From contig BRON01000020.1 in the NCBI GenBank assembly GCA_024345305.1, forward strand, positions 434,001 to 498,000: a stretch of 64,000 nucleotides of DNA. The letters run 5' to 3'. This document shows positions 29,227 through 30,900 of the stretch, piece by piece (within the stretch, counting starts at the first letter, position 1; each line of letters begins with the position of its first letter). The notes beneath the pieces are model-generated. The model was not told the origin of the DNA, ran no database searches, and saw nothing but the letters and a program-made list of their open reading frames with translations. The translations under genes and the position numbers were made by a program. Source of the DNA: Mrakia gelida (taxonomy: Eukaryota > Basidiomycota > Tremellomycetes > Cystofilobasidiales > Mrakiaceae).

Positions 29227-30900
29227 ATGCAGTCCATCAAATGTGAGTCGTCTTTGTTCTCTCCTCTGTAGATCTCTTCGTGTGAGTTGAGTCTCCAGGC
29301 TGACGAGCTCTGTTTCCCTTCGCGTTCCTTCCTTCCTCCTCAGGTGTGAGCTCAAACTCGTTCTCGCTCCTCTTCCCTTTCCTCCGCCTTCTCAAATCAG
29401 CGGGGGAATTCTCCTTCTCGAGTCGCATGGGTGCTCATACGTTCTTTCTCTTGTCCGCATTCTCTCCCAGGTCGTTATCGGTGATGGAGCCGTAGGAAAG
29501 GTCAGTCTTGTCGTCGAGCTCGCTTCTCCTTCCTCCTTCTTCTTAGCTCGCGCTGATCTCTTCCCTCCGTCCCTGCTCTGAGACAGACATGTCTCCTCAT
29601 CTCTTACACTACCAACGTGAGACTCTCCTCCTCTTACCGTCCTCAGCCTCGCAGCCTCGCAGCATCCTTCCCTCACAGGAAGGAGAAGGGGACCAACCTT
29701 GCGAGACGAGCTCGCGATGAAGTCTAGCTTCGACGCTTCTGCTCGTCCTGCTTTCACCTTACCTCAGAGCCTGACCACACCTTCACTACCTACAGTCTTT
29801 CCCCGGAGAGTACGTTCCCACAGGTGCGTTTTCCATTCGACTCTTGCAGAGGCTTCTCCAAAGGCGATACTGATCGCCTTTCCGCGTTTCGTTTCCCTGC
29901 TCGCCAAAACAGTCTTCGACAACTACTCAGCGAACGTTCTGGTGGACAGCAAGCCTGTCTCTATCAACCTCTGGGATACCGCTGGGCAGGAAGATTACGA
30001 GTGAGTGGTTTCGCCCTTTCCTCCTCGTCGAGTCGCCCGCTCGTTCACAAGATCGAAACGCGAAGCTGATCTCACATCCTTCGCCTCTTCGCCTCCCTCC
30101 AGTCGACTTCGTCCGCTCTCCTACCCTCAAACCGACATCTTCCTCATCTGCTTCTCTCTCGTTAGCCCTGCCAGTTTCGAGAGTGAGTCCTGCTCTCTTG
30201 TCTTCGTCGATGGCGATCGACCTCGTTCGACTTTGAAGCTCGCAAACTGAACTCTCCATCCCTCTTCCTCCCTCCTCTCCATCTCAGACGTTCGCTCGAA
30301 ATGGTTCCCGGAAGTCAGTCATCACGCTCCTGGAATTCGTGAGTGCAGCTTCTCCTGTCTTCGTCCTCCGGCGGCTGTTTCGCGTCACTTTCCCTTCCAA
30401 CTGAACTCACCCTCACCCTTGCTCCCGTCGCTTTCTTCCCTCAGCCATCATTCTCGTAGGAACCAAACTCGGTGCGTCCCCTCTTCTCTGCCTCGTCGAT
30501 TCCATGGACGTCAGCTCGCTGACCTCTTCGCTCCGTCCACCGAACTGCAGATCTTCGAGACGACCCAGCCACCGTCGCGACCCTCAAAGATCGTCGAATG
30601 TCGCCCATAACCTACCCCGCTGGAGTCCAGTGCTCAAGGGAGATCGGAGCCGTCAGGTACCTCGAGTGCTCGGCTCTGAGTCAGCAGGGATTGAAGGTGA
30701 TTTTGCCTCTTCGTCGACTGCTCTTCCCGTCAAGTCAACCTGGAGCTCGAACTGAACCCTCCTCTCCCCTCCGCTCTCCTCGAAACCAGAACGTCTTCGA
30801 CGAAGCCATCCGCTCGGTCCTCTCGCCGCAGCCCTTAGGAGGAGGGAAGCACGGATCCGGTCGAGGAGGAAGGAAGAAGAAGGCCTGCATTATTCTTTAA
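29227..30900 (+). CDS. RAC1: Rac-type Rho GTPase
   Basis: Small GTPase controlling actin polarity and morphogenesis at the membrane. Exons assemble to [16 protein letters not shown] (P-loop), [30 protein letters not shown] (switch I and effector region), [12 protein letters not shown] (switch II), [50 protein letters not shown] (guanine specificity) and [20 protein letters not shown] (SAL motif). The basic tail [12 protein letters not shown] ends with a CaaX box; the terminal Leu predicts geranylgeranylation. The sequence is closer to Rac than Cdc42, judged by [19 protein letters not shown] in the insert. About ten exons, several only 30 nt. Keeping the N-terminal frame needs a 2-nt exon at 29344-29345. 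The TAA is at 30898-30900. Confidence 0.95.
29344..29345 (+). other. RAC1: Predicted 2-nt micro-exon of RAC1
   Basis: Exon 1 (29227-29242) ends AAA-T before GTGAGT. Exon 3 starts at 29471 with GTCGTTATCGG in phase 0. Two bases are missing to make Cys-Val-Val. CAG at 29341-29343, then GT, then the donor GTGAGC at 29346 supplies exactly those bases and yields the invariant [16 protein letters not shown]. The flanking introns would be 101 and 125 nt. Confidence 0.7.

Follow-up and report, generated by a model that had tools for sequence, protein, structure and literature searches.

A putative two-nucleotide exon near the start of the RAC1 gene of Mrakia gelida

The first coding exon of the RAC1 gene ends in phase 1 (29242) and the exon encoding the P-loop begins in phase 0 (29471), which raises the question of how the conserved start of a Rac GTPase can be read from this locus. 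The window, which is the whole stretch of 64,000 nucleotides that was analysed and spans 434001-498000 of contig 20, was found to contain a complete RAC1 gene. A Rac GTPase of 202 amino acids ending in CIIL is encoded at 29227-30900 on the forward strand by eleven exons separated by ten GT-AG introns, with the second exon reduced to the two bases GT. As described below, we consider it very likely that this GT is a real and constitutive exon.

The RAC1 gene and its reading frame

The features of the gene, all on the forward strand, are as follows.

29227-29242 (+), exon 1: 16 nt, ATGCAGTCCATCAAAT, encoding MQSIK plus a T, ending in phase 1 and followed by gtgagt
29243-29343 (+), intron 1: 101 nt, GTGAGT...CTCAG, CTGAC branch-like motif at -44, in codon 6 at phase 1
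29344-29345 (+), putative exon 2: 2 nt, GT, which would finish the Cys6 codon TGT
29346-29470 (+), intron 2: 125 nt, GTGAGC...CCCAG, CTCAT at -37 with no CTRA, between codons 6 and 7
29471-29500 (+), exon 3 (P-loop): 30 nt, phase 0 start, preceded by tcccag
29587-29616 (+), exon 4: 30 nt
29796-29823 (+), exon 5: 28 nt, SFPGEYVPT
29913-30000 (+), exon 6: 88 nt, contains WDTAGQED
30103-30182 (+), exon 7: 80 nt
30288-30338 (+), exon 8: 51 nt
30445-30471 (+), exon 9: 27 nt
30551-30696 (+), exon 10: 146 nt
30790-30900 (+), exon 11: 111 nt, CAAX box at its end

The product carries both the start and the end motifs of the Rac subfamily of Rho GTPases, where we take the start motif to be MQ-IKCVV-GDGAVGKTCLL and likewise assume the characteristic form of the end motif. 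The highest identity to the RAC1 protein was 94%, observed for P0005 of Mrakia frigida, a Cystofilobasidiales yeast of the Tremellomycetes, which ranked fifth by E-value among the 120 proteins listed of 7985 scored. Many Rac-type proteins among the same 120 are 72-81% identical to it. RAC1 looks to be single-copy. The search of the genome (34.86 Mb in 25 contigs) gave 17 listed matches to the RAC1 protein and all five with at least 70% identity fall inside the RAC1 locus. The remaining 12 are at most 62% identical, and those examined, with C11:953586-954704 not among them, were CDC42, Rho-like and RAB7 genes. Elsewhere in the window, open frames with ankyrin-like repeats were observed at 46447-48072 on the reverse strand, which perhaps belong to an ankyrin-repeat palmitoyltransferase. 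An Rfam scan of the whole window returned no matches.

The first-pass annotation had identified the gene as RAC1, pointed to the conflict between the phases of exon 1 and the P-loop exon, and placed a two-base exon between CAG and GTGAGC. Each of these statements is borne out. The two phases are read directly from the sequence, and the proposed coordinates are exact, with ag-GT-gtgagc at 29342-29351. Direct splicing of exon 1 to exon 3 was also expected to fail, and the resulting junction (AAATGTCGTTATC) gives MQSIKCRYR followed by a stop. By the reading frame, inclusion of the two bases is needed for full-length Rac1 because skipping them leads to this early stop. The junction expected in the mature RNA is AAATGTGTCGTT, which joins AAAT-GT-GTCGTT.

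Both spliced alignment and enumeration of splicing paths agree that the conserved start is rebuilt through the two-base exon. The spliced aligner, written for this analysis, accepts exons as short as 1 nt and has GT and GC as its only donors, and it chose the 2-nt exon with all three basidiomycete Rac guides (P0021, P0027 and P0077). We then enumerated all GT-AG paths that start at the ATG, end at 29500 and contain one or two introns, each 50 nt or longer. This gave 140 open paths, and in 22 of them every site exceeds the 1% cut-offs set by 109 local introns. Exactly 16 residues with the Rac P-loop ending are produced by two of the 140 paths, and only the path with the 2-nt exon also has acceptable sites; its summed site score of 35.4 was the highest among the paths shown. 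The other 16-residue path starts with MQLTSS, sums to -0.7 and has at least one site under the cut-off. The best path with a single intron and acceptable sites scored 9.0 and would place 50 extra residues ahead of the P-loop.

Splice-site strength, chance and rival readings

The site model was built from 109 confident introns, which comprise 101 of the 152 introns from 20 small-GTPase loci and the eight other introns of RAC1. Introns were counted only if they had well-matched flanks and were shorter than 450 nt. Some exons that the aligner placed at poorly matching gene ends, in L036 and at the starts of L034 and L054, are probably artefacts. Measured against the 109 introns, the donor and acceptor of intron 1 lie at the 61st and 79th percentiles respectively. 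The acceptor of intron 2 lies at the 34th percentile and its donor at the 37th on intronic bases alone, falling to the 6th once the genomic upstream bases are counted. We take the intronic score as the fairer one for this donor because removal of intron 1 would change its upstream bases to TGT. A CTRA branch-like motif was observed in 87 of the 109 introns and CTNA in 101, and it is CTRA that intron 2 lacks. Judged by these scores, intron 2 is somewhat weak yet within range. Two characteristics of an ultra-small (1-5 nt) constitutive microexon were found at this site: the flanking acceptor and donor are ordinary in strength, and both the frame and the conserved motif depend on the exon.

We examined how often such an arrangement occurs by chance using 5000 shuffles of 29249-29449 with dinucleotides preserved. 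None of them contained a two-base GT or GC exon whose two scores both reached those observed. At the 5th-percentile cut-offs, a GT or GC two-base exon occurred in three shuffles and a two-base exon of any sequence in 39. Among 319,440 bases scanned (the window and 20 loci, both strands), the RAC1 site was the sole GT/GC match. In addition, 225 confident introns from 38 loci were searched for AG-N1-10-GT arrangements that lie 50 nt or more from each intron end and whose two sites both exceed the 5th percentile. None was found; 113 of these introns are long enough for a 2-nt exon with 50-nt margins and 34 are at least 180 nt long. These control introns are the 109 above together with 116 of the 201 from a second gene set.

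Three other readings of the phase conflict were considered. The first is a single non-canonical GA-AG intron at 29245-29470, where exon 1 would end in AAATGT and join GTCGTT with no microexon. Spliced cDNA fits this intron equally well, as the same mRNA results from removal of 29245-29470 or of its one-base slide, AG-GG at 29246-29471, and from no other single removal. Reads across AAAT-GT-GTCGTT, which had been put forward as confirmation of the microexon, are consequently not decisive. However, the 109 confident introns begin with GT (108) or GC (one) and none with GA, in alignments that admitted just GT and GC. A GA-AG intron would also turn the well-placed CAG-GT-GTGAGC into a coincidence of a kind seen in none of the shuffles or control introns described above. 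We therefore regard it as highly improbable.

The second reading is an error of sequencing or assembly, in which one GT of a GTGT was lost at 29243 so that the true exon 1 would end as AAATGT/GTGAGT before one ordinary intron. The assembled sequence at this junction is AAATGTGAGTCG. Contraction of a GT repeat here would produce exactly such a phase conflict, and exon 1 of CDC42 does end in AAATGT. Against this, the ready-made microexon would again be a coincidence by the same shuffles and control introns, and the annotation of M. frigida is likewise consistent with splicing from an AAAT that ends in phase 1. The annotated Rac1 of that species (P0005) reads MQSIK-S-VGKT, with a single S in place of the eight residues CVVIGDGA. 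When P0005 was used as the guide, the aligner joined AAAT in the window to AG-CC inside the P-loop exon through an intron at 29243-29489, giving the junction AAATCCGTAGG. The acceptor used is the following.

29488-29489 (+), cryptic AG within the P-loop exon, which would account for the annotated MQSIK-S-VGKT of M. frigida

A gene finder would need this cryptic jump only if exon 1 of M. frigida also ends in phase 1, and therefore that species probably has the same phase conflict, the evidence there being the annotated protein rather than DNA. Given this annotation, the conflict is probably not a private sequencing error, and we hold the error reading to be very unlikely overall.

The weakest reading takes the MQSIK-S-VGKT product as real: splicing of exon 1 to 29490 reproduces the annotated M. 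frigida start but removes CVVIGDGA, with most of the P-loop, and uses an acceptor (ATGGAG) whose G at -3 was found in one of the 109 introns, which leaves it almost no credibility.

A second annotation of interest is rac1p of Phaffia rhodozyma (P0238), which came from a search that favoured the C-terminal part of Rac (120 of 195 matches listed). Its annotated start is MYGEYIPT and about the first 29 residues are absent. This start fits mis-annotation of tiny exons, without demonstrating a 2-nt exon in Phaffia. Both P0005 and P0238 look to be mis-annotated. Of 7988 matches to the CDC42 protein, the 120 that were listed include no entry named as Mrakia. Such small exons tend to escape automatic annotation, and RAC1 is apparently readable only with the 2-nt piece spliced in. 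The M. frigida entry, which has lost most of the P-loop, suggests that public annotation in the Mrakia lineage can damage key motifs.

Tiny exons in related genes and the origin of intron 1

In 21 small-GTPase genes of this genome, 78 internal exons were placed with confidence, and nine of these are 10 nt or shorter. They are found in RAC1 (2 nt), CDC42 (3 and 6 nt), RHO1-like (3 and 10 nt), RAB11 (5 nt), RAN (7 nt), RAB5-like (8 nt) and RAB4-like (9 nt) genes. Those beyond RAC1 are candidates that depend on alignment to guide proteins, and the donor of the RAB5-like exon lies at the 3rd percentile. Tiny exons were fewer in a second set from the actin, Arf and EF families, which covers 20 loci, 17 of them having confident introns: two of 85 internal exons were 10 nt or shorter, and both sites of one of these two lie at the 4th percentile. 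Candidate tiny exons in L039, L034, L035 and L070 are RHO1-like TCG (3 nt), RAB11 CAACC (5 nt), RAN TACATTG (7 nt) and EF2-like ATCCG (5 nt). Good alignments to elongation factor 2 were obtained at three separate loci (L065, L070 and L071, with scores of 2551, 2791 and 2289), which suggests several EF2 genes or copies.

The two candidates in CDC42 lie in its N-terminal region, in locus L031 (G000:C2:1752600-1756900).

L031 1123-1128, CDC42 candidate 6-nt exon, GTCGTC
L031 1450-1452, CDC42 candidate 3-nt exon, AAA (Lys27)

In Rac numbering, the introns up to codon 44 are located at 6.1, 6/7, 16/17, 26/27 and 36.1 in RAC1 and at 6/7, 8/9, 16/17, 26/27, 27/28 and 40.1 in CDC42. Positions 6/7, 16/17 and 26/27 are common to the two genes, and 6.1 was found in RAC1 alone among the 21 genes tabulated. 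Position 6/7 is probably old. As it is common to CDC42, where 6.1 is absent, the probable history is the gain of a new intron at 6.1, two bases ahead of the older one, in a very intron-dense lineage; on this one genome, loss of 6.1 from the other paralogues is also conceivable. The CDC42 introns at 8/9 and 27/28 would likewise have produced its 6-nt and 3-nt exons. At 7.65 introns per gene, Cystofilobasidiales are described as extreme within the Tremellomycetes, and the intron number of P. rhodozyma as the highest known among fungi (PMC5103461). For Mrakia psychrophila, a mean of 8.0 exons per gene is given, with intron retention as the commonest alternative-splicing event (PMC5100859).

Two other origins were considered and set aside. 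The RHO1-like gene L048 was thought to have a phase-1 intron in codon 6, which would make both RAC1 positions old, but the table gives 7.1 for this intron. An introner or duplication origin was rejected as introns 1 and 2 each match themselves alone in the 34.9 Mb genome, in a search that skips simple repeats and very common words. The local alignment of the two introns scored 18, no higher than their alignments to 156 other introns (means 19.7 and 20.5). Two short direct repeats occur in 29227-29500, one of them being GTGTGAG... at 29280 and 29344, which are 75% alike.

Removal of the two introns and comparison with known systems

Intron definition is the generally accepted mode of recognition for short fungal introns. 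Each of the two RAC1 introns would be recognised on its own in this manner and they would then be removed one after another, because on an exon of 2 nt U1, bound at the second donor, would overlap with the factors that bind the 3' splice site of intron 1. If intron 1 leaves first, AAAT would join GTGTGAGC and create the donor context TGT/GTGAGC for intron 2. The partly spliced forms are expected to be AAATGTGTGAGCTC with intron 1 out and intron 2 in, and CTCAGGTGTCGTT with intron 2 out and intron 1 in; either order would give an identical mRNA. An RNA structure that brings the splice sites together was rejected, since the fold of 29243-29470 has a z of -0.95 and 34 of 200 shuffles were equally good.

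A wider proposal, which we offer tentatively and consider doubtful as a whole, is that housekeeping genes of Mrakia and its Cystofilobasidiales relatives contain many constitutive exons of 2-10 nt within their most conserved motifs, arising from new introns beside ancient ones. RAC1 would then be the extreme case, where the order of removal is obligatory and Rac1 output is set, possibly with temperature, by the rate of inclusion, as skipping leads to an early stop. A matched natural comparison is offered by CDC42 of this genome, which has an intron position in common with RAC1 but candidate exons of 6 nt and 3 nt. This comparison bears on how the spliceosome handles exons whose small size prevents binding from both sides.

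The first-pass annotation had also held that exons of this size challenge exon-definition models, which is too strong given intron definition in fungi. Documented exons of 1 nt (PMC4674806, PMC8831610, PMC12940212) likewise temper that claim. Exons of the size found in RAC1 are rare yet already known elsewhere. Among the matches listed from the open-licence literature on fungal and Cystofilobasidiales microexons and on Rac1, no title or abstract start mentions a RAC1 microexon.

Fungal stwintrons are described as two U2 introns that are removed consecutively and were gained during intron evolution (PMC12403724, PMC6616335, PMC5639578). A stwintron is built so that its inner intron splits a splice motif of the outer one, whereas the RAC1 introns are intact with two coding bases between them. 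A stwintron was therefore rejected here, as GTGAGT, CTCAG, GTGAGC and CCCAG are all uninterrupted. Recursive sites, or zero-length exons, have an acceptor adjoining a donor, are used stepwise and leave no exon bases. RAC1 has the adjoining acceptor and donor in common with them but would keep two bases in the mRNA.

Closer parallels are found among the 1-nt exons. In plants, those of Arabidopsis APC11 (PMC4674806) and of plant VPS55 (PMC8831610) are reported with RT-PCR and RNA-seq proof, and for APC11 the introns were proposed to go one after another (PMC4674806). As in RAC1, the ultra-small exon of these genes lies between two ordinary introns, is required by phase and was missed by annotation. 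They differ in being plant exons of 1 nt that are proven by RNA, whereas the RAC1 exon is a putative 2-nt fungal exon in another gene, predicted from sequence. A 1-nt exon is also described in the Fusarium P450 CYP621A, in 24 genes and confirmed by SRA reads in two species (PMC12940212). This exon differs from that of RAC1 in being 1 nt long, ascomycete and read-confirmed. Nevertheless, it is likewise fungal, the clue to it was likewise a clash of phases within a conserved motif, and its junction AGGGT resembles the AGGTGT of RAC1.
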